Positions 35,279 to 53,203 of a stretch of DNA of 64,000 nt are shown here, one piece after another. Both the position numbers and the translations under genes were made by a program. Position 1 is the stretch's first letter. Each line of letters starts with the position of its first letter. The DNA is taken from assembly GCF_003335675.1 (NCBI RefSeq), contig NZ_QPHL01000017.1, forward strand, positions 496,001 to 560,000. The letters run 5' to 3'. This DNA comes from Winogradskyella sp. KYW1333. Lineage in GTDB: Bacteria > Bacteroidota > Bacteroidia > Flavobacteriales > Flavobacteriaceae. The notes under the pieces are model-generated. The model ran no database searches and was not told the origin of the DNA. It saw only the letters and a program-made list of their open reading frames with translations.

Positions 35279-35575
35279 ATGAAAGATAATCTTAAACGTG
35301 TAATTGTAGATTTCAAGAAGCTAACACCTGAGATACTCGCATTGTTAGTAGAAAAGTATCCCGACGGCTATGACGATAATCATATTATTTCATTTAGAAA
35401 TGCCAAAAATGAAATTGTTGAGGCTGTTGAAGTTACCACAGAAGACACAAAGTATTTAGTTAAAGTAAGTACTAAATTAGCGGTGACTATGGAGAATTAT
35501 GATGAAGATGATTATGAGGATTTTGAAGGAGATGATCCTGATGCCATACAACCACCTGAAGATTTAGAGGATTAA
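35279..35575 (+). CDS. Small acidic protein of unknown function
   Basis: A 98-residue soluble protein with a mixed N-terminal half (RVIVDFKKLTPEILALLVEK, then YPDGYDDNHIISFRNA) and a strongly acidic tail (about residues 75-98, MENYDEDDYEDFEGDDPD). No signal peptide or membrane segment is visible. Codon use and the ordered first 70 residues support a real gene; I know no function. It follows the RluB-like gene by 117 bases and overlaps the last 4 bases of the convergent membrane glycosyltransferase gene. An acidic tail like this is common in proteins that bind basic partners such as nucleic-acid proteins, but that is only a suggestion. Confidence 0.7.
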   Translation: MKDNLKRVIVDFKKLTPEILALLVEKYPDGYDDNHIISFRNAKNEIVEAVEVTTEDTKYLVKVSTKLAVTMENYDEDDYEDFEGDDPDAIQPPEDLED

Positions 35576-36933
35576 ATATTTATCTTTTTCTTCAGCACGA
35601 CTTCCCAAATAAATACAGAAAACACAATGAGGTATTCAAAAGCTAATACCCATAGATTTTCGGTATAATCAATGTCGGCATAAGCAAAATAGCTTAATAT
35701 TATTACAACAGACCAAATTAGAGCGTATCTGTAGGCAGCGTAAATAGAAAGTATGATTAGTGTTGTTAAATACCATGGATGTACTGTAGTACTTAAAAAC
35801 AGATAACAACTAAGTGTCAAAAGCATTGAAGTTGCCAATTCAGTTATCGTGTGTGTTGCTCTGAAAAAGGAAAAGTAAAGGATTATAGATAAGGATATCA
35901 GTGGAAATATTTTAGTAATTATTGCTATTTCATTATATCCAGTAATGGCATAACCAATTTCTCTGGCCAAATAATATATGCTACCATTAAATTCAAAATT
36001 ACCGAACCATAATCCAATGGTTTTCGAGTAATTAGTAATAAATTCCATTGAAAAAAATGGTATAAAGAAGAGAATTAGGGTTACTCCAACAACTGAGTAA
36101 AACTTTATCAATTTCTTAAAATTTACCTTTCCATTTTCTTTTTTAAACCATTTAAAAAATAATGGTAAAAACATTATTGGGATTAATTTTATGGAGATTG
36201 AACAAGCCAAAATAATTGCGGATATTAACCACTTCCTGCAATGCAGTAAGTACAGACTCCAAACGAAAAAGAAAACCATTACACCTTCAAAATGAAGGTT
36301 ACCTGTTAGCTCTATAATTATAAAAGGGTTAAGTATGTACCAAAAGATTCTGCCGGATGGAATATTTAATTTCTCAAGGAGTTTTTTACCAAAATATAGT
36401 GTGCCTAAATCTGCACCAATAATAAGTATTCTCATACCGACAATCGAATTCAAAATACTGTGGCCAGGAAACAAATTTGCAATGACAAAGCATAGCTGGT
36501 TTAATGGTGGATAGTTTGTGTAATTTGAAGCACTTAGACTTCCCATTCCATGATATAGTTCTAGTTGATTTGGAAAATTTGTTAGAGCTCCTAATTCCAT
36601 CTGATAATCAGGAGTACTTAAATACGGATTTAAACCAGACAATATCATCTGACCATCCCAAATAAAACGATAAAAATCTTGTGAAAGATTTGGTATTGCA
36701 AATAGAAATAAAAGTCTAAATAGAACAGAAGCAATAACTAGAATCCTAAAGTAGAATCCACTTGACTTAATAACGAGATAAGCAAAAACAAAAAGACCCA
36801 CATATAGCAGAGGGAGTTTTAAAGTATCGGTTCTTGCTAAATCATAGGCAAAGATTAAATACAATATGGAACTCAAAATAATAAAAACAAGTGGTAACTT
36901 TTTGTATTTAATTATATTGATTATTCCGAGCAT
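35572..36933 (-). CDS. Polytopic membrane glycosyltransferase, mannosyltransferase (GT87/GT-C) like
   Basis: A 453-residue integral membrane protein with ten or more hydrophobic segments. After the second to third segment comes the loop NLSQDFYRFIWDGQMILSGL followed by NPYLSTP. D-x-x-R-x-x-x-DG...G-x-NPY is the first-loop signature of GT-C polyprenyl-phosphate-dependent mannosyltransferases of Bacteroidetes and actinobacteria. It would transfer a sugar from a lipid-phosphate donor on the periplasmic side. The dolichol-phosphate-mannose synthase-like GT2 encoded some 2.7 kb away could supply such donors. Its stop overlaps the stop of the small acidic gene by 4 bases. Confidence 0.75.
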   Translation of the reverse strand: MLGIINIIKYKKLPLVFIILSSILYLIFAYDLARTDTLKLPLLYVGLFVFAYLVIKSSGFYFRILVIASVLFRLLFLFAIPNLSQDFYRFIWDGQMILSGLNPYLSTPDYQMELGALTNFPNQLELYHGMGSLSASNYTNYPPLNQLCFVIANLFPGHSILNSIVGMRILIIGADLGTLYFGKKLLEKLNIPSGRIFWYILNPFIIIELTGNLHFEGVMVFFFVWSLYLLHCRKWLISAIILACSISIKLIPIMFLPLFFKWFKKENGKVNFKKLIKFYSVVGVTLILFFIPFFSMEFITNYSKTIGLWFGNFEFNGSIYYLAREIGYAITGYNEIAIITKIFPLISLSIILYFSFFRATHTITELATSMLLTLSCYLFLSTTVHPWYLTTLIILSIYAAYRYALIWSVVIILSYFAYADIDYTENLWVLAFEYLIVFSVFIWEVVLKKKINI

Positions 36934-37445: not shown

Positions 37446-38935
37446 ACTTTAGAACCTAAAGATTTAAAAAAGACATACCCAAACCCAATAAATAGCATCA
37501 GGTGAAATGGAAATAGTCCAAAGTCACCACCCTGATCACCAACAATAAAAGCGCTGTATAATCCAAATCCAAAATACAGCATTAGAAGACCTTCTATGAT
37601 GACGTGTGGAGATACTTTTTTACGTAGGTATTTATTGTTTTTCCAATTATCTTTAAACATTCTAATATTAAATTTAGGTGTGCGTACAAACTCACTCTTC
37701 TTGCCTGCATGACCTTCAAGTACTGCAATGGAATTATGCAATGAGAAGCCCATGGCAATAGAAAAGAAAGTGAAAAACATGCCTGTGTATCCAAAGAATT
37801 TCTTAAATCCACTACCATAAATATTTCTGTACATAAACCAATAGCAAACAAAAAAGATAATAGTACTCATTACAAAGAAACTCATAACGTAGAAGTAGTC
37901 TCTGAGATGAGCATATTCATTTTTAATGTAGAGCATAGGTATACTTAATACTGCTACCACAAAAATGCTTAAAAACATGGAACTGTTTAGTAAATGAAGA
38001 AGTCCGTGTATTTTAGTTTTGGTAGAAATATTTTTAGATTTAATTACGCGCCACAGCATTTTTCTGAAATTCTCTGCACCTCCTTTATTCCATCTAAACT
38101 GTTGAGAACGCGCGGCACTTATTACAATCGGTAATTCTGCAGGTGTTTCTACATCTTCTAAATACTTAAATTTCCACTTCTTAAGTTGTGCTCTATAACT
38201 TAAATCTAAATCTTCAGTCAATGTGTCTCCTTCCCAATTACCTGCATCTTCTATGCAGGTCTTTCTCCAAATACCAGCTGTTCCGTTGAAATTGATAAAG
38301 TGTCCTTTTGAGTTACGACCAACCTGTTCTAAGGTAAAATGTGCGTCTAATGCAAAGGCTTGGATTTTGGTTAACAAAGAATAATTTCTGTTAATGTGTC
38401 CCCAGCGCGTTTGTACTACGCCAATTTCTTCATCTTTAAAATAAGGAATGGTGCGTTTTAACCAGTTTGGTTGAGGTAAAAAGTCTGCATCAAATATTGC
38501 TATAAAGTCACCTTTGGCAATTTTTAACCCTTCCTTTAATGCGCCAGCTTTAAATCCAGTTCTATCAGTTCTGGTGATGTGTTTGATATCAAGTCCAGTA
38601 GATGCTAATTTTTCAACATGAGCTTTAGTAGTATGAATAGTTTCATCAGTAGAATCATCTAAAACCTGTATTTCTAATTTATTCTCAGGGTATTCTATGA
38701 GAGCAATGTTGTCTAGAAGACGTTCCATAACATACATCTCATTAAAAACCGGTAGTTGAATAGTTACATATGGAATTTCATTAGGATTATTCAGGTCAAA
38801 AGTTTCACATTCTTCACGTTTCTTTTTTGAACTTAAATAATTATAAAGCAAGTTGAGTTGTGCGAGTGCATACATAAAAATAAGCACTATTGCTATTGTG
38901 TAAACTACAATTATGAAATACTGAAGATAAATCAC
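37442..38935 (-). CDS. Membrane-bound GT2 glycosyltransferase (cellulose synthase/ceramide glucosyltransferase-like)
   Basis: A processive-type family 2 glycosyltransferase. One transmembrane helix at the N-terminus (VVYTIAIVLIFMYALAQL) precedes the cytoplasmic GT-A domain with VLDDSTDET (about residue 90), FDADFLP (about 149), NGTAGIWR, TEDLDLSYR (catalytic Asp and helix) and QQFRWNKG, the QxxRW motif of beta-glycan synthases. Four to five C-terminal transmembrane helices follow. 497 residues is the common size of this Bacteroidetes family, where the product is not established. The start codon overlaps the end of the upstream DPM1-like gene by 4 bases (ATGA), so the two GT2 enzymes are coupled. 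Confidence 0.87.
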   Translation of the reverse strand: MIYLQYFIIVVYTIAIVLIFMYALAQLNLLYNYLSSKKKREECETFDLNNPNEIPYVTIQLPVFNEMYVMERLLDNIALIEYPENKLEIQVLDDSTDETIHTTKAHVEKLASTGLDIKHITRTDRTGFKAGALKEGLKIAKGDFIAIFDADFLPQPNWLKRTIPYFKDEEIGVVQTRWGHINRNYSLLTKIQAFALDAHFTLEQVGRNSKGHFINFNGTAGIWRKTCIEDAGNWEGDTLTEDLDLSYRAQLKKWKFKYLEDVETPAELPIVISAARSQQFRWNKGGAENFRKMLWRVIKSKNISTKTKIHGLLHLLNSSMFLSIFVVAVLSIPMLYIKNEYAHLRDYFYVMSFFVMSTIIFFVCYWFMYRNIYGSGFKKFFGYTGMFFTFFSIAMGFSLHNSIAVLEGHAGKKSEFVRTPKFNIRMFKDNWKNNKYLRKKVSPHVIIEGLLMLYFGFGLYSAFIVGDQGGDFGLFPFHLMLFIGFGYVFFKSLGSKV

Positions 38936-39642
38936 CTGAAACTATATTTAAAAATCCACCAAAGGATTTTTACGCCTGCAAATATAGCACCTTTTATGGT
39001 ACCTGAAACTTTTGAGACACCTATTCTGTTTCTGTAATTGACAGGGATTTCTCTGTAGGTGAATTTTTGTTTGAGTGCTTTCAGTTGCATTTCTACTGTC
39101 CAACCATAAGTTTTATCCTCCATTTTAAGATCTAATAATTTAGAATACTTGATAGCACGAAATGGTCCTAAATCTGTAAAGGTTGATCTAAAAAATAAGC
39201 GCATTAAACTCGTTGCAAGCCAGTTGCCAAAAATTTGAGGTAAGGTCATTGATCCTTTTTCTCGTAGTTCTTTTACACGTGCACCAACTACAAAATCCAC
39301 ATTATCTTCTATAATCGGATTGACAATTTTTACTAGCTCTTCAGGATAATCACTATAATCCCCATCTAAAAAAACAATGATACCTGCTTTTTTTTCTTGT
39401 TGAGCAATGTAATCCATGCCTTTGAGACAAGCATAACCATACCCTTTTTGTGTTTCGACCAACACTGTGGCACCTGAACCTTTGGCATTCTTTTCTGTAT
39501 TGTCTGTAGAATTATTGCTTACTACAATAACTTCATCTACAATATCTGGGATATCGTTTATGACATGTTTAATAGAATCCTCTTCGTTAAAAGCAGGAAT
39601 TATAACTTTAATGATGGGCATTACCTCAATTTGAAGTTGCAA
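38932..39642 (-). CDS. GT2 glycosyltransferase, polyprenyl-phosphate sugar synthase-like (DPM1-like)
   Basis: Soluble or membrane-associated GT2 enzyme of 236 residues. It has the N-terminal IIPAFNEEDSIKHVI, VVSNNSTDNT, the metal-binding FLDGDYSDYPEEL (DxD near residue 94) and WTVEMQLKALKQK; the C-terminal IPVNYRNRIGVSKVSGT is typical of dolichol-phosphate mannose or glucose synthase relatives. No C-terminal membrane helices are present apart from one weak segment near the end. It probably charges a polyprenyl phosphate with hexose, or modifies a lipid. A 4-base overlap with the downstream cellulose synthase-like gene and a 12-base gap from the upstream ferredoxin-like gene suggest a single operon. 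Confidence 0.82.
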   Translation of the reverse strand: MQLQIEVMPIIKVIIPAFNEEDSIKHVINDIPDIVDEVIVVSNNSTDNTEKNAKGSGATVLVETQKGYGYACLKGMDYIAQQEKKAGIIVFLDGDYSDYPEELVKIVNPIIEDNVDFVVGARVKELREKGSMTLPQIFGNWLATSLMRLFFRSTFTDLGPFRAIKYSKLLDLKMEDKTYGWTVEMQLKALKQKFTYREIPVNYRNRIGVSKVSGTIKGAIFAGVKILWWIFKYSFR

Positions 39643-39654: not shown

Positions 39655-41244
39655 TTAATTCTCATTTACCAATTTCCTCAAATCAACATCATTACCTAGA
39701 AGTATTTCATTAGGGTTAATTCGTCCTTTCATACTATCATTTTCTAATTTTAGGACACCCCTTGGACAAACCGCAGCACAAATGCCACAACCAACACAAC
39801 TTGAGCGCACAATATTTTCACCTTTTTGGGCATAATGTCTTACATCAATACCCATTTCGCAACTGTTTGAGCAATTTCCACAAGAAATACATTGGCCACC
39901 ATTGGTTGTTATTCTAAACTTTGAGAATAGGCGTTGCTGAAATCCTAGTACAGCAGCCATAGGACAACCAAAACGACACCAAGCTCTACTTCCTAAAATT
40001 GGGTAAAAACCTGTACCGATTACACCTGAGAAAATAGAACCAATATATATACCATAAGCTGATCTTAAGTTTCCGGATTTTATGTAAAAAAGTTGATCCG
40101 TTGTACCTGTGAAATGCATTATCAGAAGAAGAGTAATTACAAGAAAAAACCCAATAGCACCATATTTGGCATCCTTACCAAGTTCATTTCGTTTAAAAAT
40201 CATTACACCAGCGAAAATAATTGTCAAAAAGCCTATCACAAGTGAAATGAAAACACCTCTTGTTAACCAAAAATCATTACTCTTATAACCTAAATATGTA
40301 TAGATCATTGCAGTTGTCATAACAACTGAAAAGACAAGTACTAAGTGAATTAACCAACGTTCTAGTTTCCATGCTGACAATTTTTTTGAAGATAAATGCC
40401 TAAAAGAATCACCCGCTGTTTCAGCAAGACCTCCACAACCACAGACCCATGAGCAATACCACCGTTTCCCATATTTGTAAGTTAAAATGGGTGTAATTAC
40501 AAATATTGATAGAACACCGAATAATATAAGAGCTAATCCAGTATTACCATTAGATAAAAAGGCTTTTACAGACCATTCATCAAAAATATAATAGTTAAGT
40601 GGCCAGATGCTCTTAAGATCATAATATGGTAAATCATTATTCATTATATACATAAATTCCGGAATCAAAAAGGCAAAACCTAATTGAAAAAACATTACCG
40701 ATACAGTTCTAATTTGTTGATAACGATTATGTCTGTATTTTAAAATGAACTTATAACCAAAAGCTAAAATTGCAATTGTGTAAAGTGTACCATAAACAAA
40801 CCATTGGCTTGCATTTCTGCCACTTAACAATTGACTAAGAGGGTCAAATAAACTGATTAAGCCTGTATTCGCCACACCATCTTTTCCTAGTCCTAAATAT
40901 TGAGGATAGAAATAAAGAACAATATAAAAGGCAGTAAGAATAATCCCTACCGACCAGCCCCAAAATCCTCTTGAAGAAATTGATTTGAACCATACTCCAT
41001 CATTTTTTATGCCTTCTAATTTGTTTAAATAGGCTTCCCTAGAATAAAAAATCGTTCCAATTACAATTAGACCCAAAGCAAATGTTAGAAATAATCCTTT
41101 GTTTGGAAAACTTGTATTGAATAGAGCAAGAGTTAAAATAAATAGACCAATTAGTCCTAAACCTAGAGCTATTTTCTGTTTGGTTGTAATGTTTAAAGCA
41201 TCTGGTGTTGCCAATGACATGCTATGATTTAATTTATTACTCAT
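39655..41244 (-). CDS. Polytopic membrane protein with 4Fe-4S clusters (NapH/NosR/CcoG-like)
   Basis: Membrane electron carrier of 529 residues. About ten hydrophobic segments surround two Cys-rich loops characteristic of the NapH/NosR group (CSWVCGCGG near residue 268 and CRFGCPMAAV near 418). The C-terminal soluble part has two classic 4Fe-4S motifs, CISCGNCSNSCEMGI and CVGCGICAAVCPRGV. In the family such proteins pass electrons between quinol or flavin and periplasmic or cytoplasmic partners. Only 2 bases separate it from the upstream FAD oxidoreductase gene, its likely electron-donating partner. The physiological acceptor is not visible here. Confidence 0.85.
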   Translation of the reverse strand: MSNKLNHSMSLATPDALNITTKQKIALGLGLIGLFILTLALFNTSFPNKGLFLTFALGLIVIGTIFYSREAYLNKLEGIKNDGVWFKSISSRGFWGWSVGIILTAFYIVLYFYPQYLGLGKDGVANTGLISLFDPLSQLLSGRNASQWFVYGTLYTIAILAFGYKFILKYRHNRYQQIRTVSVMFFQLGFAFLIPEFMYIMNNDLPYYDLKSIWPLNYYIFDEWSVKAFLSNGNTGLALILFGVLSIFVITPILTYKYGKRWYCSWVCGCGGLAETAGDSFRHLSSKKLSAWKLERWLIHLVLVFSVVMTTAMIYTYLGYKSNDFWLTRGVFISLVIGFLTIIFAGVMIFKRNELGKDAKYGAIGFFLVITLLLIMHFTGTTDQLFYIKSGNLRSAYGIYIGSIFSGVIGTGFYPILGSRAWCRFGCPMAAVLGFQQRLFSKFRITTNGGQCISCGNCSNSCEMGIDVRHYAQKGENIVRSSCVGCGICAAVCPRGVLKLENDSMKGRINPNEILLGNDVDLRKLVNEN

Positions 41245-41246
41245 TA

Positions 41247-42551
41247 CTAGGCAGTTTGTAGTTGATTGTTATAGGATTGAATTATTTGTTTTTCAAATCT
41301 TGAATAAAACTCAGGATCAAAATTTGCTTCAGCAAGATGATTAATTACATAATCAACATCTCTTTTTTCGGTAAGCCACGTGTCAAATGTTTCATGTCGC
41401 ATCCTAATTCCAAAGGTGTTGATGCCTAGAAATTTATTTGTGTTCTTATCATAAGCTACTGTTATGCATTTAGTGTCATCTTCGTGTTTCCAATGAAAAT
41501 GGGCTTCATTCTCAGGTCTGCCTTTTTTGCCATGTACCCAGCCATAGGTTTGGTATTCTATATCTAAAAATTTAGCCGAGTTAAACCAGTGTCCTGGATT
41601 GTACTTTATGCGATTGCCACAAATAGTTTGTGCAAGTACTTCACCCATCATTCGACCAGTATACCAAACCGCTTCAATTGGCCTTCTATTTCCTATGGCT
41701 TCGTGTTGCTCCGCACAATCTCCTATAGCGTAAACGTTGGGAATATTTGTTTCTAAATATCGATTTACTTTAACGCCTCGACCAGTTTCAATTTCAGAAT
41801 CCTTTATAAAATCTATATTAGGAGAAACTCCAGCAGTTAACCCAACTACATCGCATTCAATTTCTTCTCCAGTTTCTTCGATGATTACAGATATAACTTT
41901 ACCGTTTTCATCAGATTTAATTTCCTTAAGGTTTGTAGATAAACGTAAATCAATATGATGATTTCTTATGTGTCTATTAATTATTCCACTTTCGCCTTCA
42001 GGTAATACACCATTCCAAAAGCTAGACTCTCTAACAAGAAATGTGACAGGGATTCTACGACTATTTAACATTTCTGCAAGTTCAATACCAATTAAACCAC
42101 CACCAACAATTACAGCACGTTTACACTCTTTATTATTAGGAGCAAATTTTTCAAGATTTTCTAAATCCTGTTTGTGGTACATTCCCATAACACCTTCCAA
42201 ATCTTGTCCTGGCCACCCAAATTTATTTGGTTTGCTTCCAGTTGCAATTACAAGTTTGTCATAGTTCAATGTTTCACCATGAGAAAAATGAAGAACTTTA
42301 GAGTTAGTGTCAATGAATTCTACAAAACCTTGTTTAAGATCAATACGATTTTTATCCCAAAACCAATCCTCGTAAGGTTGGGTATGTTCAAATTTCATAT
42401 GTCCCATATAAACATACATCAAAGCAGTACGTGAGAAAAAATATTCTGCTTCTGCTGAGATAATGGTAATTTTTTTATCCGATAGTTTTCTGATGTGTCT
42501 TGCAAGTGTAACACCAGATATACCATTGCCGATTATTACGACGTGTTCCAT
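41247..42551 (-). CDS. FAD-dependent pyridine nucleotide oxidoreductase
   Basis: Flavoprotein with two dinucleotide-binding motifs: VVIIGNGISGVTLARH directly after the start (FAD) and AVIVGGGLIGIELAEML near residue 155 (NAD(P)H). The FAD-closing motif NVYAIGDCAEQ is near residue 278. The frame extends upstream to a TTG at 42578, but the ATG at 42551 puts the Rossmann motif at the N-terminus as expected, so I chose it (434 residues). It resembles the nitrite/rubredoxin reductase branch. A 2-base gap to the membrane 4Fe-4S protein gene predicts a NAD(P)H-to-ferredoxin-type membrane electron conduit. The region past residue 330 (FGIRMRHETFDTWL) is a family-specific tail. Confidence 0.87.
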   Translation of the reverse strand: MEHVVIIGNGISGVTLARHIRKLSDKKITIISAEAEYFFSRTALMYVYMGHMKFEHTQPYEDWFWDKNRIDLKQGFVEFIDTNSKVLHFSHGETLNYDKLVIATGSKPNKFGWPGQDLEGVMGMYHKQDLENLEKFAPNNKECKRAVIVGGGLIGIELAEMLNSRRIPVTFLVRESSFWNGVLPEGESGIINRHIRNHHIDLRLSTNLKEIKSDENGKVISVIIEETGEEIECDVVGLTAGVSPNIDFIKDSEIETGRGVKVNRYLETNIPNVYAIGDCAEQHEAIGNRRPIEAVWYTGRMMGEVLAQTICGNRIKYNPGHWFNSAKFLDIEYQTYGWVHGKKGRPENEAHFHWKHEDDTKCITVAYDKNTNKFLGINTFGIRMRHETFDTWLTEKRDVDYVINHLAEANFDPEFYSRFEKQIIQSYNNQLQTA

Positions 42552-42650
42552 ATTGAAATTGATTGTTAGTATAGACAATAGGTCGAAGGTTTTGTTAAAA
42601 CCTTAACAGCCATAGTTGAATTTCTTTAAATTTAGGCATTATTTAGTTTT

Positions 42651-43667
42651 ATGAAACATTTAATTTCTTTGATTTTTTCCATTTTAATATTTGGCTGTGC
42701 AGCTAGTGTTTATAAATCTGAGAAAATAAATGGCGTAAGTTTTGTGGCTATGAATACAGCTGTAGATAGCACTAATATAGTACCGGTAGTTGAGGTAAAT
42801 GCTAATTATGCTGCTGTTATGCCATTTGGATTTATAAGAGATTTAGATCAACCTAAGGTTATACATAATACGGATAGACAATGGTATGGTGAAACTAGGG
42901 CAGGAGCAAAGCAATACATATACGAATTACAGAAGAAAAATATTTCCATTATGATAAAACCTCAAATATGGGTTAGTCGTGGAAAATTTACTGGAGAAAT
43001 AATGATGCAATCTGAAACCTCTTGGAAAGAACTAGAGGATTCATACAGTAATTTTTTAATGGAATATGCAGAACTTGCTGAAGAAGTAAATGCAGAAATT
43101 CTTTGTGTTGGTACCGAACTAGAACTGTTTACAAAATACAGACCTGAATATTGGTACTCGCTAATAGAAAAGATTAGGTCAGTCTACAAGGGTAAGTTAA
43201 CTTATGCTGCCAATTGGAATGAATATAGAAAAACACCTTTTTGGGATAAATTGGATTTTATTGGTATTGATGCCTATTTTCCAGTAAGTGATCATAAGAC
43301 TCCGAGTTTTGAAGATTGTTTGGCTGGATGGCAAAAACATAAATTTGAAATATTAAAATTATCAAGTACCTATAAAAAGAAAGTACTTTTTACTGAGTAT
43401 GGTTATCGCAGTGTAGATTATGCAGGTGAAAAACCTTGGGATTATTCTAATAGGGAAGGGTCTGTAAATCTTGAAGCTCAAGTAAATACCACAAAAGCGC
43501 TATTTGAAACATTTTGGTATGAAGACTGGTTTGCTGGAGGATTTGTTTGGAAATGGTTTCATATTCACAATAAAGTCGGTGGTCCAGATAATAATATGTT
43601 TACACCACAGAATAAACCAGCCCAGGAGGTTATAAGAGTTCAATACGGATATTCAAACAACTATTAA
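42651..43667 (+). CDS. GH113-like glycoside hydrolase lipoprotein
   Basis: Predicted outer-membrane or periplasmic lipoprotein (lipobox IFGCA, Cys16) with a family 113-type TIM barrel, the family of beta-1,4-mannanases. The acid/base should be Glu in LCVGTELELF (about residue 163) and the nucleophile Glu in VLFTEYGYRS (about 250). ANWNEYRKTPFWDKLDFIGI and the C-terminal GGFVWKWFHIHN complete the barrel landmarks. The 338-residue length is right. It is followed with no gap by a phosphatase gene (TAA then ATG directly). Both genes converge on the arsenosugar operon. Mannan specificity is inferred from the family, not shown. Confidence 0.85.
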   Translation: MKHLISLIFSILIFGCAASVYKSEKINGVSFVAMNTAVDSTNIVPVVEVNANYAAVMPFGFIRDLDQPKVIHNTDRQWYGETRAGAKQYIYELQKKNISIMIKPQIWVSRGKFTGEIMMQSETSWKELEDSYSNFLMEYAELAEEVNAEILCVGTELELFTKYRPEYWYSLIEKIRSVYKGKLTYAANWNEYRKTPFWDKLDFIGIDAYFPVSDHKTPSFEDCLAGWQKHKFEILKLSSTYKKKVLFTEYGYRSVDYAGEKPWDYSNREGSVNLEAQVNTTKALFETFWYEDWFAGGFVWKWFHIHNKVGGPDNNMFTPQNKPAQEVIRVQYGYSNNY

Positions 43668-44396
43668 ATGCGAAACTTAGTTATTGGAGATATTCACGGT
43701 GGTTTAAAGGCCCTTGTTCAGTTATTAGAACAATTGAAAGTTAAATCAGGAGATAAACTTGTTTTTCTTGGTGATTATGTTGATGGCTGGAGCGAATCTG
43801 CACAAGTTATTCAGTATCTTATTGAGTTGTCTAATGCTGTAGAGTGTGTTTTTATTAAGGGTAATCACGATGTTTGGTGTGAAGATTGGCTCAGGGAAGG
43901 ATTGGCAAATCCAGTGTGGTTAGCTCATGGTGGTAAAGAAACTGTTGAAAGTTATTCTGAATTTACGTATGAAGAAAAAAAGCAACATCTACAGTTCTTT
44001 CAAGCTATGGAACTTTTTCATTTAGACAAGGCAAATAGATTATATGTACATGCTGGGTTTACATCTATGCATGGCGTACAACGAGAATATGAAATAAGAA
44101 ATTTTTACTTTGATAGAACCCTATGGGAAATGGCTTTAACAATGGATAAACGTATTTCTAAAACATCTGACAGATATCCTCAGAGATTAACCCATTACTC
44201 GGAAATTTATATTGGCCATACTCCAACATTGAATTATCATAAGCATGAACCTATGAATGCTGTTAATGTGTGGAATGTTGATACAGGTGCCGCTTTTACA
44301 GGGAGGCTTTCAGCTATGAATGTTGATACAAAAGAAGTCTTTCAAAGTGATCCTGTTACTTATTTGTATCCTAAAGAGCGAGGCAGAAATAAGTAA
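43668..44396 (+). CDS. Calcineurin-like metallophosphoesterase (PP2A-like serine/threonine phosphatase)
   Basis: A 242-residue cytoplasmic phosphatase with the complete motif set of the PPP/ApaH-like group: GDIHGG at residues 7-12, GDYVDGW (35-41), KGNHDVW (65-71), HAGF (about 126-129) and GHTPTLNYH (about 185). Two metal ions bind through these residues. Substrates may be phosphoproteins or dinucleoside polyphosphates, which the sequence does not decide. It begins on the base directly after the GH113 stop codon and ends on the base directly before the stop of the convergent arsenosugar glycosyltransferase gene, so no intergenic DNA exists on either side. Confidence 0.9.
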   Translation: MRNLVIGDIHGGLKALVQLLEQLKVKSGDKLVFLGDYVDGWSESAQVIQYLIELSNAVECVFIKGNHDVWCEDWLREGLANPVWLAHGGKETVESYSEFTYEEKKQHLQFFQAMELFHLDKANRLYVHAGFTSMHGVQREYEIRNFYFDRTLWEMALTMDKRISKTSDRYPQRLTHYSEIYIGHTPTLNYHKHEPMNAVNVWNVDTGAAFTGRLSAMNVDTKEVFQSDPVTYLYPKERGRNK

Positions 44397-45089
44397 TTAT
44401 TTTACATGATTTTTGTAATAGTGATAGATGTCATTGGCATCAGCACCCAACCAACGTTTTACATAAATGGTCCAGAAGTGATATTGTAATTTCCAAATGC
44501 CAACTTTTTTGTATTGTCTTGCTGAGGTTCTTATTTTACTATTTATAACTACAAATTGTTTTCGGGCATATAGTTCATTAATTAAAATATTGTCCTCATA
44601 AATAAGGTAATCTTCATCATAGCCACCAATATCTTTGAATAGTTCTCGTGTTATAAATTGACTTTGATCGCCTCCACGACATGGTCTCCAATTAAATTGT
44701 GTGAGCCAACTGGCAAGTCTTAACCACCAATGATTACTATCAAACTGCATTCTAAAGCAACCAGCCTTATTTTCTTTAGAAATATCATCTAAAATTAAAA
44801 TATCGAAATTCTTTGGAGGTAAAGCATCAGCATGAAGAAAATATAAGACCTCACCATTCGAAGCTTTAGCACCCAAATTCATTTGTTTTGCTCTTCCTTT
44901 TTCTGAGTTTAAAAGTTGAACATCAGCAAAGCAAGCAACAATATCCTTTGTTTTGTCCGTACTGCCACCATCTACTACAATTATATCTGAAATATTGGAG
45001 CTATTTGAATTGGCATCGATATGATGCAATAGTTTCCCGATGAATTTTTCCTCATTAAGAACAGGAATAACAATTGAAATCTTACTCAT
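44397..45089 (-). CDS. Arsenosugar biosynthesis glycosyltransferase, TIGR04283 type
   Basis: A family 2 glycosyltransferase of 230 residues: ISIVIPVLNEEKFI at the N-terminus, IIVVDGGSTDKTKDI, then LLNSEKGRAKQMNLGAKAS and FLHADALPPKNF (metal-binding Asp). GRAxQMNxGA plus HADxxxP is the signature of the TIGR04283 group, found with radical SAM ArsS genes. It is the last gene of the eight-gene minus-strand operon, and its ATG overlaps the end of the DUF547 gene by 8 bases (ATGAGTAA). It probably adds a sugar or aglycone-related group to the arsenic-containing ribose; the acceptor is inferred. Confidence 0.88.
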   Translation of the reverse strand: MSKISIVIPVLNEEKFIGKLLHHIDANSNSSNISDIIVVDGGSTDKTKDIVACFADVQLLNSEKGRAKQMNLGAKASNGEVLYFLHADALPPKNFDILILDDISKENKAGCFRMQFDSNHWWLRLASWLTQFNWRPCRGGDQSQFITRELFKDIGGYDEDYLIYEDNILINELYARKQFVVINSKIRTSARQYKKVGIWKLQYHFWTIYVKRWLGADANDIYHYYKNHVK

Positions 45090-46059
45090 TCAAGTCCCAA
45101 TTATAGTCCTTGAAACTTTTACTTGCAGTGTCAGAAATCTGAACTTCAGAATACAAATTCAGAAAATCAATTAGGTTTCTGTATTGTTTGAAATCTTTAG
45201 CAAACCACTTAAATATTTTGGAGAGTCTAATTCTGTTAGTAGAAATTTCGTTCTTAGATGAATCACTAAGAAATTCTTTGGTTGAATTTGTCAGTAACGT
45301 TTCAAGGTTTGAAGCTGTGAAGGCTTCATTTTGAAGTTTGGGGCAAGATTCTGAAGCACAGACAATGGCAAAGTGGATTCTAGGTTCATTCATCTTACGC
45401 AATATTTTGTGTTCAATATCATTGAGATTTAAACACTTATCACCAAATTTCCATAATCGCTGGTCCCATGGATCTTTTATGTCCTTAATGCTTTTGATAG
45501 GATAATTACGTAGAATCAAGTCGACAGTTAAGGCATTATAGGCGTTGATCCAAAAGGCTAATTTTTCTTCCTGGGAATAATCATTAATTTTAGAAAAACC
45601 CATTTTTAGCATCTTTATATAAACTGCTAAACCTTTTGCGTCTTTTTGAAATCCTTTGTAATTAACAGAACCATCTTCTGTTACATATTTTTTTAATAGG
45701 GCCTCCCAGATTTCATGGTTTTCATAAAATCGTTTCGAAATATTTTGATGAAAACTTAGATCATTAATAGAATCATTTTGTTTTTCTTTCATAAGTTCCT
45801 TTGCCTCATCTAAACTTTCGGCTTCAGCTATTGTAGTTCCTTTATCATCAGTAACCTCAATCATTTCAAATATTTCGCCTTCTTCTGGTATTGGAGGAGG
45901 AGGTGGAGGAGGTGGCATCGTTGCATCAGGTACCTTCGTAATAATCAATGAATCTATCACAGCTTTATCTTGTGAAGTATTCTTAACAACTTCTTTTTTT
46001 GTACCACAGGAAAACAAACCTAGTGCAACAAAAAGGATTAAAGTTCTAATAAGTGTCAT
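45082..46059 (-). CDS. DUF547 domain lipoprotein in the arsenosugar operon
   Basis: Probable lipoprotein. I chose the ATG at 46059, because it gives a perfect signal peptide (TLIRTLILFVALGLFSC, lipobox FSC) and a 10-base gap after the ArsM stop; an open frame runs upstream to 46110 inside arsM. After a low-complexity segment with eight consecutive prolines (DNA 45893-45916, ATMPPPPPPPPIPEEGE) comes the DUF547 domain: KLAFWINAYNALTVDLIL, then IKDPWDQRLWKFGDKCLNLN and IHFAIVCASESCPKLQ, with conserved Asn and Cys. The function of DUF547 is not known; some relatives resemble peptidases or transglutaminase-like folds. Its place between ArsM and the last glycosyltransferase suggests an envelope role for arsenosugar handling. 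Confidence 0.85.
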   Translation of the reverse strand: MTLIRTLILFVALGLFSCGTKKEVVKNTSQDKAVIDSLIITKVPDATMPPPPPPPPIPEEGEIFEMIEVTDDKGTTIAEAESLDEAKELMKEKQNDSINDLSFHQNISKRFYENHEIWEALLKKYVTEDGSVNYKGFQKDAKGLAVYIKMLKMGFSKINDYSQEEKLAFWINAYNALTVDLILRNYPIKSIKDIKDPWDQRLWKFGDKCLNLNDIEHKILRKMNEPRIHFAIVCASESCPKLQNEAFTASNLETLLTNSTKEFLSDSSKNEISTNRIRLSKIFKWFAKDFKQYRNLIDFLNLYSEVQISDTASKSFKDYNWDLNE

Positions 46060-46069
46060 GCCATTTTGT

Positions 46070-47038
46070 TTAGCAACATCCACCACCATCGTAGTGAAAT
46101 GTTGATTCACTAATGTAGACGTCGTCTCTACCCAACCCTTTCAATGCACCTGCGGTTTTATCGCAAACTGCTAAAGGTTGGTTTTTGAGTAATGTGTGGC
46201 CTGCCTTATCATCAAAATAATCATTTTCACCAAAATAGATGGCGGCTTTTCCTGTAAAAACACAAGGCCCATCCACTGGCATAGGATCTTTTATAGCTGC
46301 AACTTCTATGGATTCTATATATATTAATTCGTCTGTTGGATAGTGTTTAGGGTCCAATATTCTATAAGGTTTTCTGGCTCTTATTTCAATTGTACCAAAT
46401 CCCGCATCAGTAAGGGCTTTTACATATTCTGCAATTGGCAAGCTACCGCTGAGGCACAAAGCTCTTAATCTCTCGTCATTACGTAATGCATCATTCATCG
46501 GTTGTTCGCATGTAGGGTCGCTCATTACTAACCTGCCATGAGGTTTAAGTACACGGTACATCTCATCAATGGCTTTTTTAAGATCATCTGCTTTGAAGAT
46601 ATTGAAAAGGCAATTTTGTGCTGCTACATCTATGCTATTATCTTCTACGGGAAGATTCATAGCATCACCCTTTTTAAGTTCAACAAAATCACTTTTAAAC
46701 CATGGATTTAGTTCTTCAGCTTCCTTAAAATTTTTACGTGATGCCTCTAACATTTCATCAACCACATCAATACCAATAACGCCACCTTTCTGCCTGTTGA
46801 AATATGCAAACTGCAAAAGTTCCATACCACCTCCAACACCAACATAAAGCATTTTGGGATTGTTGGTTAAATCTCGTGCATGCACTGTACTGCCACAACC
46901 ATAGTTCATTTCTTGCATTATTCTAGGAATCTTTAAACCTGGAAGTTCCCAGATAGGATTTGTGGTACAGCATAATCCAACATCTGGCGTTAAAGCAGCT
47001 TCCTTATATACATCGTGTGTGGTTTCTAAATAACTCAT
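46070..47038 (-). CDS. arsM: Arsenosugar biosynthesis arsenite methyltransferase ArsM
   Basis: S-adenosylmethionine-dependent methyltransferase that methylates trivalent arsenic. The SAM-binding Rossmann fold is clear: LYVGVGGGMELLQF (about residue 65), IGIDVVDEML, and DNSIDVAAQNCLFNIF (about 129-145). Arsenic-binding thiols may include the Cys pair in GLCCTTNP (22-23), Cys48 in MNYGCGS and the C-terminal Gly-Gly-Gly-Cys-Cys. The long C-terminal half with KPYRILDPKHYPTDELIYIE is specific to the arsenosugar branch of ArsM. It follows the purine nucleoside phosphorylase gene with no gap. In the pathway it makes the di- or monomethylated arsenite that ArsS uses. Confidence 0.92.
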   Translation of the reverse strand: MSYLETTHDVYKEAALTPDVGLCCTTNPIWELPGLKIPRIMQEMNYGCGSTVHARDLTNNPKMLYVGVGGGMELLQFAYFNRQKGGVIGIDVVDEMLEASRKNFKEAEELNPWFKSDFVELKKGDAMNLPVEDNSIDVAAQNCLFNIFKADDLKKAIDEMYRVLKPHGRLVMSDPTCEQPMNDALRNDERLRALCLSGSLPIAEYVKALTDAGFGTIEIRARKPYRILDPKHYPTDELIYIESIEVAAIKDPMPVDGPCVFTGKAAIYFGENDYFDDKAGHTLLKNQPLAVCDKTAGALKGLGRDDVYISESTFHYDGGGCC

Positions 47039-47851
47039 TTATAATGTCTTTATTAATTCTTTAAATAGGGTTATCATATTAGGTTCGGCTTTGTTTGCCA
47101 TTTCTATGATTTCGGTGATATTTACAGGTTTAAGATTATCAGGATCACATTCGTCTGTTAAAACTGAAATTGCCGAGGCTTTTAGACCTAAATGATTTGC
47201 AACTATTATTTCTGGTACTGTACTCATACCTACCGCATCTGCACCAATAATCTTCAGCATTCTGTACTCAGCTCTGGTTTCTAATTGCGGTCCAACAACA
47301 CTTGCATATACACCTTTATGTAGTTTAATATTATTAGTGTTTGCAATTTCTTCTATTGTTGTATTTATCTCAGAATTATAAGGAGCGCTCATATCAGTAA
47401 AACGCTCACCTAATTCTGATACACCTTTAAAGGCTAATGGAGAGCTACCTTGCAAATTAATATGATCATCAATTAACATTAGCTCGCCTTTCTTAAAATC
47501 TAAATTAATAGCACCTGCAGCATTGGAAACTAAAAGAGTTTTTATTCCGAGTTTTTCCATTATTCTAACTGGGAAAGTAACATCTTGAAGTGAATAGCCT
47601 TCGTAAACATGGAAACGGCCTTGCATTACAACAACCTTTTTGCCTGCTAATTTACCGAAAATGAGTTTTCCCTTATGAAACTCTACAGTTGCGGTAGGAA
47701 AGTTTGGAATGTGATTATAACTGGCCTTTGCAATTATCTCAACCTCGTTTATGAGTTGACCAAGTCCAGTACCTAAAATTATACCAATTTCAGGTTTGTC
47801 AAAGCCTTTGCTCTGCAAATATTCTGTGCTTTCAGTTATGTATTTAATCAT
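47039..47851 (-). CDS. Purine nucleoside phosphorylase (arsenosugar operon member)
   Basis: Trimeric-type PNP of 270 residues that splits purine nucleosides with phosphate. Landmarks: GIILGTGLGQLI (phosphate loop), QGRFHVYEGYSLQDVTFPVR, VSNAAGAINLDFKKGELM, VVGPQLETRAEYRML and GADAVGMSTVPEIIVANHLG (purine-site residues). Its ATG overlaps the preceding gene by 8 bases (ATGATTAA) and the next gene starts on the base after its stop, so it is a core operon member. A reasonable role, inferred, is removal of adenine from the arseno-adenosine intermediate that ArsS makes, freeing the arsenic-ribose for glycosyl transfer. Confidence 0.92.
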   Translation of the reverse strand: MIKYITESTEYLQSKGFDKPEIGIILGTGLGQLINEVEIIAKASYNHIPNFPTATVEFHKGKLIFGKLAGKKVVVMQGRFHVYEGYSLQDVTFPVRIMEKLGIKTLLVSNAAGAINLDFKKGELMLIDDHINLQGSSPLAFKGVSELGERFTDMSAPYNSEINTTIEEIANTNNIKLHKGVYASVVGPQLETRAEYRMLKIIGADAVGMSTVPEIIVANHLGLKASAISVLTDECDPDNLKPVNITEIIEMANKAEPNMITLFKELIKTL

Positions 47852-48473
47852 TTAACTGTTGTATTTTTTCTTGTAATTCTAAGTTTGATTTATAGAAATC
47901 TGAAGCAATTAAATCTTCATAAGTATCAATGTCATTTAATGTTTCTAAGGTACTTACTGAAACGTTTAATTTTTGTAACTCCTGTAACGTTGTCTTCAAT
48001 AGATGATTTTGACTCCATGGTTTATTCTGAAATATTTCAGGCACCATCGATCTAAGGCCAATTAAATAATAACCACCATCTTCTGCAGGTCCGAATACTG
48101 AAACTGAATCATCAAGTGAATTAATACTCTCTTTAATATGACAGGATGTAATTGTTGGTAAGTCAGAACCAATTAAGACTATTTTTTTATAACCAGCATT
48201 AAAACTATCATTGAAGGCATTATACATTTTTTCGCCTAAATCTTCCCCTTGCTGAACAGTTTTGTTTTCATTTGGCCAATGAGATTCTGTTATAGAACTA
48301 GAGTAATAAATTTTAATGTCACAGTTTAGGTTTCTTGTTGCTTTCTCTGTAACTTTTACGAGTTCTGAGTAAACTTCAAAAGCACCAATGTCTCCAATGG
48401 TCTTTGCTAATCTTGTTTTTACAGTACCGAGAGTTATATTTTTTACAAAAACTATTACTAATGCTTTAGTCAT
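47844..48473 (-). CDS. Arsenosugar biosynthesis glycosyltransferase, TIGR04282 type
   Basis: A 209-residue nucleotide-sugar-transferase-like protein: VIVFVKNITLGTVKTRLAKT at the N-terminus, then QQGEDLGEKMYNAFNDSF, IVLIGSDLPTITSCH (Asp of the metal site) and VFGPAEDGGYYLIGL. This is the family often described as rSAM/selenodomain-associated transferase 1, found beside radical SAM ArsS genes. Its ATG overlaps the rhodanese stop by 8 bases (ATGACTAA). Along with the TIGR04283 enzyme at the operon end it may assemble the glycosidic part of the arsenosugar; donor and acceptor are unknown. Confidence 0.88.
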   Translation of the reverse strand: MTKALVIVFVKNITLGTVKTRLAKTIGDIGAFEVYSELVKVTEKATRNLNCDIKIYYSSSITESHWPNENKTVQQGEDLGEKMYNAFNDSFNAGYKKIVLIGSDLPTITSCHIKESINSLDDSVSVFGPAEDGGYYLIGLRSMVPEIFQNKPWSQNHLLKTTLQELQKLNVSVSTLETLNDIDTYEDLIASDFYKSNLELQEKIQQLND

Positions 48474-48960
48474 ATACCTTTTTACCTTTTAAAAGCCATT
48501 TGCTCCAATCCTTTGAAAATGCATGTACATTTTCAGTTGCTTCTTCTTTCGAATTATAAACCGTGAAGTTATTGTTTTTCCATTCAAAAATACCGCCAAA
48601 CAAATTGTAAACATTTTTATGGCCCTCTTTCTTTAGTTTTTCTGCAATGTCTTCAGATCTTACACCTATGGAGCAATACACAACTATCATGGCATCATTA
48701 TCCGATAAAAATTTTTTAGTTTCAATAAGACTAAAATTATCATAGCCTACATGGATAGCATTTTTGAGATGGCTAACTTTATATTCTTCAATTTCTCGAG
48801 CATCTAATAATACTGCTTCTACACGTGGCGTTGCCAATTCATTTGCAGTAATATATGGGATACTTTCTTTATTGTATTTTTTTAATACGTCAGCTATAGT
48901 TTCTTGAGAAAAAGAAAATAGGTTAACTATTGAGAATATGATTAATAGGGAATTTTTCAT
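48466..48960 (-). CDS. Exported rhodanese-like protein in the arsenosugar operon
   Basis: Single rhodanese domain protein. The ATG at 48960 is chosen: it yields a signal peptide MKNSLLIIFSIVNLFSFSQ, whereas the TTG at 48972 lies within the end of arsS. Within the domain, LLDAREIEEYKVSHLKNAIH and MIVVYCSIGVRSEDIAEKL are visible, the latter with the active-site Cys in a CSIGVR loop; NVYNLFGGIFEWKNN follows. Persulfide transfer is the family chemistry. An exported rhodanese in this operon might handle thiol-bound arsenic or sulfur in the periplasm, which is inference. It is separated from ArsS by 4 bases and overlaps the next gene by 8. Confidence 0.87.
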   Translation of the reverse strand: MKNSLLIIFSIVNLFSFSQETIADVLKKYNKESIPYITANELATPRVEAVLLDAREIEEYKVSHLKNAIHVGYDNFSLIETKKFLSDNDAMIVVYCSIGVRSEDIAEKLKKEGHKNVYNLFGGIFEWKNNNFTVYNSKEEATENVHAFSKDWSKWLLKGKKVYD

Positions 48961-48964
48961 AATG

Positions 48965-50029
48965 TTAAGCAACGGTTCCTTGGCAGCTGCTTCCAGCGCC
49001 CGCTGTACAGCCGTAACAATGTTGTGAAATAATAATATTTCTTCCTTCTAATAGCTCTTCATTGTATTGAGAAATGTGCTTTACTTTGCTATTTACAGGT
49101 AACTCTAACATCTGGTTAAAATCACAATCGTATAAATATCCATCCCAGCTTATTGATAAGGTATTTGTGCACATAACATTAGCTACAGCATCAGGATTGT
49201 AGGCATCTACCAATTGATACATGTAGTCTTCGTAGTTTTCTGAAGCAATTAAATAATCCAAGAATCTACTTATCGGAAGATTTGTAATAGCAAATAAATT
49301 ATGAAATTGAATACCAAAATCTTCTAGTAATGCCTTTTTAAAATCCTTTTCCATCGAAGCCTGATTGCCAGGAAGAAATGCACCAGATGGGTTGTAAACT
49401 AAATCTAACCTCAAGCTACTATTGGGCATGCCATAACCAATATCATTTAATTCCTGTAACGCTTTAATGGATTTGTCAAAAACACCATCACCACGCTGTT
49501 TGTCGGTTTTGCCTCTTGTCCAATGTGGCATGGAGCTCACCACGTGAACATTGTGTTTTTTGAAGAATTCTGGTAAATCATAATACTTTTTATTTGCTCT
49601 AATTATGGTGAGATTTGATCGCACTATAAAATCTTTAATACCTGCTTTTGATGCTTCTTCAACAAACCATCTAAAATTAGGATTCATTTCAGGTGCACCA
49701 CCTGTGAGATCTAAAGTATGTGCCTCCGTATTTTTTATTACTTCCAGACATTGAATCATTGTCTCTTTGGTCATAATTTCCTTTCTGTCAGGGCCAGCAT
49801 CTACATGACAATGCTCGCAGACTTGATTACACATATAACCAACATTAATCTGTAATATTTCAAGTTTTTTCGCCTTAAGTGGAAATTGATTCGTATCCGC
49901 AATTTTATCTTTAAATTTTGGTAACTCACCATTCTGAAAAATTCCATTTGATAGAATTTCTAACTGTCTTTTGCTCTGAGCTAATAAACTCTCTCGCTTA
50001 TGAAGAGATTGGGTTTTAACTTTTGTCAT
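48965..50029 (-). CDS. arsS: Arsenosugar biosynthesis radical SAM protein ArsS
   Basis: Radical S-adenosylmethionine enzyme that adds the 5'-deoxyadenosyl group to methylated arsenic, the committing step of arsenosugar synthesis. The cluster-binding Cys triplet is MCNQVCEHCHVDAGP (CxxxCxxC, about residues 70-80). DLTGGAPEMNPNFRWFVEEA and FIVRSNLTI follow. The C-terminal Cys-rich tail ISQHCYGCTAGAGSSCQG belongs to the family extension. Many relatives are selenoproteins; here the corresponding positions are Cys and no in-frame TGA is present. It follows the peroxidase-like gene after 6 bases. Confidence 0.93.
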   Translation of the reverse strand: MTKVKTQSLHKRESLLAQSKRQLEILSNGIFQNGELPKFKDKIADTNQFPLKAKKLEILQINVGYMCNQVCEHCHVDAGPDRKEIMTKETMIQCLEVIKNTEAHTLDLTGGAPEMNPNFRWFVEEASKAGIKDFIVRSNLTIIRANKKYYDLPEFFKKHNVHVVSSMPHWTRGKTDKQRGDGVFDKSIKALQELNDIGYGMPNSSLRLDLVYNPSGAFLPGNQASMEKDFKKALLEDFGIQFHNLFAITNLPISRFLDYLIASENYEDYMYQLVDAYNPDAVANVMCTNTLSISWDGYLYDCDFNQMLELPVNSKVKHISQYNEELLEGRNIIISQHCYGCTAGAGSSCQGTVA

Positions 50030-50035
50030 TTAATA

Positions 50036-50371
50036 CTATCCATCAAGTTTATTCACTTTATTCATCATCTGAACACCATGCACTAAGGTTGCACCACTTT
50101 TAATTGCAGCTCCTACATGTATGGCTTCCATCATTTCTTCTTTGGTAATTCCACGTTCTAATCCATCTTTAGAATAAGCATCTATGCAATAAGGACATTG
50201 CTCTGTATGTGCGACTGCTAATGCAATTAATGATTTTTCTCTAGCAGTTAATGCACCTTCTTCAAATACCTTACCGTAATAATCAAAGAATTTGTTTCCA
50301 AGTTCTTCGCTCCAGTCATTGATTTTGCCGAATTTCCTGAGGTCTGCAGGGTCGTAATATGTTTTAGACAT
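50036..50371 (-). CDS. Arsenosugar biosynthesis-associated peroxidase-like protein (carboxymuconolactone decarboxylase family)
   Basis: First gene of the operon, 111 residues, an AhpD/CMD-fold protein. The redox motif EQCPYCIDAYSKDG (CxxC) is followed by EEMMEAIHVGAAIKSGATLV, where the conserved His completes the proton-relay site seen in AhpD. The family is regularly encoded next to ArsS and is thought to act on peroxides or thiols. It may keep arsenic trivalent or protect the radical enzyme; that role is inferred. The region upstream (50372-50486) should hold the operon promoter, but no convincing TAnnTTTG element was found there. Confidence 0.9.
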   Translation of the reverse strand: MSKTYYDPADLRKFGKINDWSEELGNKFFDYYGKVFEEGALTAREKSLIALAVAHTEQCPYCIDAYSKDGLERGITKEEMMEAIHVGAAIKSGATLVHGVQMMNKVNKLDG

Positions 50372-50486
50372 TGATTAGTTTATTATTGGTTTTTACAAAA
50401 AATCAAGATAGTATTTTTTGTCGAAGTTAATTCTTAAAGATTACAGAAAATATCAATATTCATAAAACAAGTTGTTTGCCAATAAA

Positions 50487-50646
50487 CTAATAATCAATTT
50501 TGTCTTCTTTATCTTCCCAATTTTTAAAAACTTTTAGAGCAGTTTCTCTTGCCAATTATTTCACCATCTTTTACAACTATATATCCAAATGGGCCACCTT
50601 CATTATTTTTCACTCCATTTATTGCAACTTCTATTGCCTTTATCAT
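50487..50646 (-). pseudogene. Deletion relic of a guanine/cytosine-type nucleoside deaminase
   Basis: Reading the minus strand from ATG 50646 gives AIEVAINGVKNNEGGPFGYI followed by VVKDGEIIGK, the N-terminal strand-helix of the CDA-fold nucleoside deaminases (GGPFGxxVVKDGxIIG). The frame then jumps to ALKVFKNWEDKEDKIDY plus TAG, the usual C-terminal end of guanine deaminases. The junction is near 50540. The middle of the protein, about 100 residues including the zinc-binding His-Ala-Glu and PCxxC motifs, is missing. This is an internal deletion with frameshift; no functional deaminase can be made. Confidence 0.85.
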
Positions 50647-50797
50647 AAACTGTTATTTGTTATTCATAGGACATCAACTTTCATTAATTCGTATAGTAAT
50701 CTCAATATTATTTTAAGGATATTTATTATTAATAAAAAATTTCGAGAATTAGGCTAATATCTTAAATGATTTTAAATCTAAAAAATAACCTTTAATA

Positions 50798-53196: not shown

Positions 53197-53203
53197 TATA
53201 GAT

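Follow-up and report, generated by a model that had tools for sequence, protein, structure and literature searches.

We analysed a 64,000-nucleotide stretch of contig NZ_QPHL01000017.1 of Winogradskyella sp. KYW1333 (hereafter the window), in which eight genes at 44397-50371 had been predicted from the sequence to form an arsenosugar operon containing ArsM, ArsS and two envelope proteins, a rhodanese and a DUF547 lipoprotein. Our preferred reading, to which we give a probability of about one half, is that the locus combines a complete arsenosugar operon with a larger module for an envelope glycolipid. What we establish is which genes are present, that their order is conserved and that relatives inherit them together; the chemistry is inferred. 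The arsenic genes look like one arm of this jointly inherited set, whose product is probably a membrane lipid bearing a sugar; some relatives retain the set without the arsenic genes.

The arsenosugar operon

The operon comprises the following genes, given with family scores and cut-offs.

50036..50371, minus strand: AhpD-like protein, TIGR04169, the first gene (189 bits, cut-off 120)
48965..50029, minus strand: ArsS, a radical S-adenosylmethionine (SAM) enzyme, TIGR04167, with a CX3CX2C motif (443 bits, cut-off 300)
48466..48960, minus strand: exported rhodanese, NF045521, active-site loop CSIGVR (201 bits, cut-off 145)
47844..48473, minus strand: TIGR04282 protein, a CofC-like nucleotidyltransferase or glycosyltransferase (191 bits, cut-off 134)
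47039..47851, minus strand: purine nucleoside phosphorylase (PNP), NF006054 (348 bits, cut-off 218)
46070..47038, minus strand: ArsM, NF038099 (573 bits, cut-off 400)
45082..46059, minus strand: DUF547 lipoprotein, Pfam PF04784 (98.5 bits, cut-off 27)
44397..45089, minus strand: TIGR04283 protein, a glycosyltransferase of family 2 (GT2) (232 bits, cut-off 182)

These data confirm the eight-gene operon: all open reading frames (ORFs) lie tightly packed on the minus strand, and every product exceeds the curated cut-off of its family, that of NCBIfam for seven of the eight and that of Pfam for DUF547. With corrected starts, neighbouring genes overlap by 8 bp or sit 0-10 bp apart, and the eight are therefore likely to be one transcript. 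The corrected start of the rhodanese is probably ATG 48960, where the ORF list had TTG 48972; that of DUF547 is probably ATG 46059 rather than GTG 46110, giving the lipobox LFSC. Both arsenic enzymes are of the arsenosugar type, ArsM by its NF038099 score and ArsS by its TIGR04167 equivalog score together with CX3CX2C, whose cysteines C67, C71 and C74 were invariant in 14 aligned sequences. The host genome, a Flavobacteriaceae-type draft, spans 2.8 Mb over 17 contigs, and among the best 80 named ArsS loci the most similar were from Winogradskyella, Gaetbulibacter and uncultured Flavobacteriaceae.

A larger cluster

ArsS scored over its cut-off in 80 of 198 sampled genomes of the phylum and in 191 of 249 genomes of the family. 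We assembled 220 annotated sources, consisting of 79 phylum loci, 80 named loci (the best 80 matches, hence biased towards the operon studied), 60 family loci and the operon studied itself. Two loci in which ArsS was lost in gene picking (L099 and L101) were dropped, 209 were left at 98% ArsS identity and 28 with short flanks were removed, giving a set of 181 loci in which "near ArsS" denotes a position within -5/+10 kb. The operon genes of the original prediction are real and its boundary was drawn too tightly, as five further minus-strand genes (35572-42578) go with the operon by synteny. These genes, and two convergent genes between both halves, are listed below.

43668..44396, plus strand: metallophosphoesterase, PF00149, convergent, between both halves; syntenic on the opposite strand in 29/181 loci
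42651..43667, plus strand: GH113 glycoside hydrolase, PF22612, convergent, between both halves; syntenic on the opposite strand in 40/181 loci
41247..42578, minus strand: pyridine nucleotide-disulfide oxidoreductase (flavin adenine dinucleotide, FAD; NAD(P)H-type), PF07992, second half; near ArsS in 43/181 loci
39655..41244, minus strand: NapH-like membrane protein (ferredoxin-type) with 4Fe-4S domains; in 39/40 ArsS-positive and 9/40 ArsS-negative genomes
38932..39642, minus strand: GT2 resembling polyprenyl/dolichyl-phosphate sugar synthases (DPM-like), PF00535
37442..38935, minus strand: cellulose-synthase-like GT2 (CesA-like), PF13641; other family matches all below cut-off
35572..36933, minus strand: polytopic membrane protein resembling glycosyltransferases of the C fold (GT-C-like), no Pfam family over cut-off; in 40/40 ArsS-positive and 10/40 ArsS-negative genomes

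Synteny was found for all five genes of the second half, and co-inheritance was also tested for 39655-41244 and 35572-36933. In the maps of many relatives, TIGR04283 (or the opposite-strand GH113 and phosphoesterase genes) is followed by the FAD, NapH-like, DPM-like GT2, CesA-like GT2 and polytopic protein genes. Both halves run uninterrupted in seven loci (L172, L177, L179, L194, L224, L228 and L237). In L179 the run extends on one strand from the AhpD-like gene through the polytopic protein gene, which is cut by the locus end, with gaps below 400 bp and no rhodanese. L177, L194 and L224 have the same run without rhodanese, ArsM, DUF547 and TIGR04283; L172 resembles these as far as the CesA-like gene at the end of the locus, and in L228 and L237 the run reaches the NapH-like gene. 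The DPM-like GT2 scored below cut-off with both TIGR04182 (114 bits, cut-off 325) and NF041391 (65 bits, cut-off 375). For the polytopic protein, the six best Foldseek matches of a low-confidence model (mean pLDDT 55.5, best E 0.018) were ALG6, PimE, ArnT and three chains of glycosylphosphatidylinositol (GPI) transamidase, which we take to be GT-C-like as well. No Rfam element was found in 35000-53500 and no tRNA within the window. A short ORF just upstream of the operon (50524-50646, minus strand), without a match in Pfam, resembles by eye the first part of a deaminase gene interrupted by a stop codon.

Co-inheritance across 80 Flavobacteriaceae genomes

We compared 40 of the 191 ArsS-positive genomes (mostly top-scoring) with 40 of 58 ArsS-negative genomes. 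ArsM and ArsS go together, with NF038099 in 38/40 ArsS-positive and 0/40 ArsS-negative genomes, and the predicted arsenosugar pathway is thus supported at the gene level. Six module genes were each present in 36-40 of the 40 ArsS-positive genomes: TIGR04282 (40/40, against 11/40 ArsS-negative genomes), TIGR04283 (36/40 against 9/40), DUF547 (38/40 against 12/40 at E<=1e-8; 36 against 7 at E<=1e-50), NapH-like (39/40 against 9/40), GT-C (40/40 against 10/40) and a fatty-acid hydroxylase at any genomic place (39/40 against 11/40). PNP was in 40/40 and 28/40, respectively. Eight of the ArsS-negative genomes held all six module genes, without ArsM, and 27 held none of the six; DUF547 is therefore part of a separable module. 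In five genomes lacking ArsS and ArsM (G182, G212, G284, G345 and G360; G and L numbers denote genomes and loci), the order TIGR04282-PNP-DUF547-TIGR04283-NapH-GTC is kept on one strand of one contig. G305 and G382, the latter a single-contig genome listed as 100% complete, have TIGR04282-PNP-TIGR04283, NapH-like and GT-C in the same order and a more distant DUF547 on the opposite strand. Since TIGR04282 and TIGR04283 occur together in 9/40 ArsS-negative genomes, all without ArsM, their presence alone is no proof of arsenosugar synthesis. This is a warning for annotation, where both families now count as arsenosugar genes and, on their own, do not show that a genome produces arsenosugars.

Survival of the whole module in 8/40 ArsS-negative genomes would also be expected if it were an unrelated surface-glycan or lipid pathway that merely adjoins the arsenic genes, the ArsS products never being attached. 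The location of ArsS on a different contig from the module in some ArsS-positive genomes (G286, G311 and G283) points the same way. We nevertheless regard this explanation as rather unlikely: TIGR04282 and GT-C are in all 40 ArsS-positive genomes, ArsM lies between PNP and DUF547 even in the three genomes where ArsS is elsewhere, and an Acinetobacter island (described below) joins several of the same genes in another phylum.

A merged arsenosugar and glycolipid cluster should include lipid-modifying enzymes. The operon studied contains none, and one is co-inherited with the module: the fatty-acid hydroxylase is in 39/40 ArsS-positive and 11/40 ArsS-negative genomes, and 10 of these 11 also have GT-C (counts uncorrected for phylogeny). 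The genes inserted in relatives (218 loci, duplicates kept) include the fatty-acid hydroxylase, with 44 cases, SusC-like, SusD-like and sodium-symporter-like genes with 18-21 and a phosphate transporter with 13; in the 181-locus set the hydroxylase was near ArsS in 39. The transport genes bring up another explanation, that the ArsS-negative module genomes are salvage users that import ready-made algal arsenosugars and build them into lipids. The presence of SusC-like, SusD-like and sodium:solute symporter-like genes in 18-21 of the 218 clustered ArsS loci speaks in its favour; we consider it very unlikely. In L120-L125, L129 and L130, a SusC/SusD-like pair, a sodium:solute symporter-like protein and a phosphoesterase lie between ArsS and the rhodanese, which hints at uptake.

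ArsS loci with and without ArsM

ArsM was near ArsS in 81 of the 181 loci. These 81 loci contained DUF547 in 64 cases, rhodanese in 59, PNP in 73, TIGR04283 in 55, TIGR04282 in 77 and the AhpD-like gene in 79, compared with 11, 11, 19, 40, 73 and 75, respectively, in the 100 loci without ArsM. Over all ArsS loci, DUF547 (75/181) and rhodanese (70/181) are minorities, yet both are part of the ArsM-containing operon type. As one part of what would refute it, the original prediction had named absence of the two genes from most other arsS operons; they are indeed absent from most of the 181 loci, and within the 81 ArsM-containing loci both are present in most. In L039, L042, L049 and similar Bacteroidota loci, ArsS-TIGR04282-TIGR04283 occurs without ArsM or AhpD nearby.

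The rhodanese is best read as an accessory of the first half of the cluster that follows the ArsM-type operon and parts ways with DUF547. Its CxxGxR motif is present in 84/86 orthologues. Because it is enriched in ArsM-containing loci (59/81 against 11/100), it may act in redox or sulfur chemistry close to arsenic. The description of the two extra genes as lacking an assigned role is only partly right: NCBIfam already has a model for the rhodanese, NF045521, whose name, "rhoda_near_glyco", refers to this setting. The rhodanese is a member at 201 bits, and the description of that model gives no function.

DUF547 and the envelope

DUF547 goes with the separable envelope/lipid module, and a role dedicated to arsenic is unlikely for it. 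It sits between PNP and TIGR04283 in the five genomes that keep the module order without ArsS and ArsM, it is followed by TIGR04283 in 64/88 orthologues, and it is directly preceded by the fatty-acid hydroxylase in 33/88. Its occurrence extends beyond ArsS and ArsM to 12/40 ArsS-negative genomes (7 at E<=1e-50) and to ArsS-free plasmid operons. The arsenic-specific role proposed for it is thus not supported, given its retention in those five genomes and in ArsS-free lipid-type operons of Pseudoalteromonas and Catenovulum. Lipoprotein anchoring did not hold up as a conserved property either: a crude lipobox pattern was found in 42/88 orthologues, and DUF547 of L146, L148 and L154 have plain signal peptides by eye. 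What stands is an envelope role in a wider sense, through linked lipid and membrane glycosylation genes, that is not arsenic-specific for DUF547.

The same observations bear on plain arsenosugar detoxification, in which the eight genes would make and export water-soluble arsenosugars, the rhodanese making thio-arsenicals and DUF547 anchoring or exporting the products. Joint inheritance of ArsS and ArsM, the frequency of DUF547 (64/81) and rhodanese (59/81) near ArsM-containing ArsS loci, and the loss of DUF547 together with ArsM in G202 and G409 are in agreement with it. DUF547 and TIGR04283, however, stay neighbours without ArsS and ArsM, DUF547 occurs in ArsS-free lipid-type operons, and its lipobox is not conserved, and we find this explanation unlikely.

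An AlphaFold model of DUF547 (mean pLDDT 81) had no Foldseek match at E<=0.001, and no solved relative was found by sequence at E below 0.2. With VIA-align, the best Z was 5.0, to 14-3-3 chains, by which the fold is neither shown new nor shown known. A catalytic role was considered and none could be assigned; the orthologue in L165 is without both motif cysteines. Several genomes carry a second DUF547 paralogue, about 35% identical, close to the NapH-like gene (G412:C4:92422-93027 and G206:C25:1140244-1140888). Among the matches listed in a search of Creative Commons-licensed PMC papers focused on arsenosugars, no paper linked DUF547 with ArsS, and the DUF547 papers among the PMC matches listed were, by title and start of abstract, mostly on plants.

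Sugar activation and a proposed pathway

The TIGR04282 protein matches the CofC family (PF01983, 26.4 bits, cut-off 22) and PDB 3cgx at 1e-27, its gene directly precedes PNP in 92/109 cases, and a KTRL motif is present in 141/165 copies. Because a phosphorylase that gives a sugar-1-phosphate adjoins this CofC-like enzyme, the pair suggests a nucleotide-sugar step. At E<=1e-30 the operon PNP matched only itself in its own genome, where two more distant PF01048 proteins are present. Asp233 was found in 107/107 aligned operon PNPs (109 found, two short ones excluded); it presumably occupies the position of human Asn243, where Asp would favour adenine. Retuning of PNP for arsenoadenosine was considered and set aside. 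Asp233 was not counted as a specialisation, since the same Asp is present in PDB 4lna and 4m1e (genomic context not viewed) and PNP is widespread.

The roles of ArsM and ArsS derive from arsenosugar work in Synechocystis (Xue 2019; Cheng 2021), as cited in the excerpts available of PMC8552651 and PMC12159101. As established for these families elsewhere, ArsM supplies methylated arsenite and ArsS adds the adenosyl group. PNP could then release adenine, leaving (5-dimethylarsinoyl-5-deoxy)ribose-1-phosphate, which the CofC-like TIGR04282 protein may activate to a nucleotide sugar, and the GT2 TIGR04283 would transfer the (arseno)ribosyl unit to a membrane acceptor. The lipid-linked product might be modified and extended by the fatty-acid hydroxylase, which many relatives carry within the operon, by the FAD/NapH-like redox pair and by the GT2/GT2/GT-C set, and DUF547 would act on it on the extracytoplasmic side. 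In genomes lacking ArsS and ArsM, the module would instead handle unmodified ribose derived from ordinary nucleosides. We tentatively suggest, as a possibility short of probable, that the cluster encodes the synthesis of a bacterial glycolipid with a ribosyl group, and that ArsM and ArsS, where present, turn this sugar into arsenoribose. If so, it would be a candidate for the genetic basis of arsenosugar lipids, DUF547 and TIGR04283 providing the membrane-side steps. The locus resembles Synechocystis-type biosynthesis in its curated-family ArsM and ArsS, accompanied by the TIGR04282/TIGR04283 pair and a nucleoside phosphorylase, and differs in the size of the cluster, which also holds envelope, redox and GT2/GT-C genes.

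Several findings weigh against an arsenosugar operon merged with a glycolipid module. The genomes compared are related, and the counts and Fisher values are uncorrected for phylogeny; absence of ArsS was shown row by row for 20 of the 40 ArsS-negative genomes and inferred from its missing in the match list for the other 20, which include G305, G345, G360 and G382. An operon-type DUF547 is in only five of the eight genomes with all six module genes, that of G305 and G382 being 35-37% identical and that of G229 a weak partial match. Conversely, two ArsS-positive genomes, G202 and G409 (loci L194 and L224), lack ArsM (E<=1e-60), DUF547 (E<=1e-8) and TIGR04283 (E<=1e-40) together, so that in this direction DUF547 follows ArsM. 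Near ArsS, the FAD gene was found in only 43/181, the NapH-like gene in 37/181, the DPM-like gene in 18/181 and the CesA-like gene in 13/181 loci, with flanks of about 10 kb, and the GT-C fold rests on a model of low confidence. The operon studied has no linked fatty-acid hydroxylase, its genome holding only a 52%-identical relative, unlinked, on contig C3. As to sugar activation, the second CofC-like motif is in only 60/165 TIGR04282 copies, NCBIfam files TIGR04282 as a glycosyltransferase, and PNP may be a plain housekeeping enzyme, being also in 28/40 ArsS-negative genomes. On plasmids, DUF547 follows a radical SAM protein in Burkholderia glumae, with no lipid gene annotated nearby, and in Legionella adelaidensis it is without lipid-gene company. 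In L194 and L224, the FAD, NapH-like, GT2 and GT-C genes still run with ArsS.

Marine organisms are described in part of PMC7345539 as a rich source of arsenolipids whose metabolism is known to a limited extent, and an excerpt of a 2024 study (PMC11009773) refers to several yet unknown arsenic-cycling pathways in algae. The gene set described here, defined and co-inherited in a common family of marine bacteria, connects ArsM and ArsS with enzymes for lipids and for membrane glycosylation, and relatives that keep the module without arsenic genes provide natural controls.

Plasmids and other phyla

ArsS was present in 52 plasmid records, of which we viewed annotations for Hymenobacter, Pseudanabaena, Acinetobacter, Thiodictyon and one Burkholderia glumae record, and match coordinates for Cupriavidus. 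DUF547 and ArsS are separated by about 2-6 kb on the Hymenobacter (opposite strand), Acinetobacter, Cupriavidus (match coordinates) and B. glumae plasmids; DUF547 is not annotated within 6 kb of ArsS in the Pseudanabaena and Thiodictyon records. A plasmid search with the TIGR04283 protein of the operon studied, at E<=1e-25, found only Hymenobacter. In the Thiodictyon plasmid, a GT2 and a sterol desaturase directly precede ArsS.

An island on an Acinetobacter portensis plasmid (L269) encodes ArsS, a TVP38/FAD protein, DUF547, TIGR04283, TIGR04282, an arsenite-methyltransferase-like protein below every NCBIfam cut-off, a phosphate transporter, a methylthioadenosine (MTA) phosphorylase and a sterol desaturase. 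It shares with the operon studied ArsS, DUF547, both TIGR families, a methyltransferase of this kind and a nucleoside phosphorylase, and its phosphate transporter and sterol desaturase are 42% and 29% identical to genes in relatives of that operon. It differs in having a TVP38/FAD fusion instead of separate FAD and NapH-like genes and MTA phosphorylase instead of PNP, with no GT-C set annotated in the stretch viewed.

Some proteobacterial plasmids agree with a link between DUF547 and lipids, as DUF547 stands in runs that include TVP38/FAD oxidoreductases and sterol desaturases, whether ArsS is present or not. In the DUF547 operons of Pseudoalteromonas and Catenovulum, DUF547 adjoins a TVP38-type (VTT)/FAD oxidoreductase and a sterol desaturase lies in the same run. 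Unlike the operon studied, these have no ArsS, ArsM, TIGR04282 or TIGR04283 annotated in the stretches viewed, and contain an ATP-binding cassette (ABC) transporter and a cytidine diphosphate (CDP)-alcohol phosphatidyltransferase. A Roseomonas plasmid (L264 and L268), with no ArsS annotated, carries TIGR04282-DUF547-two radical SAM proteins-phosphonate-type ABC transporter, and a second DUF547 after an FAD oxidoreductase.

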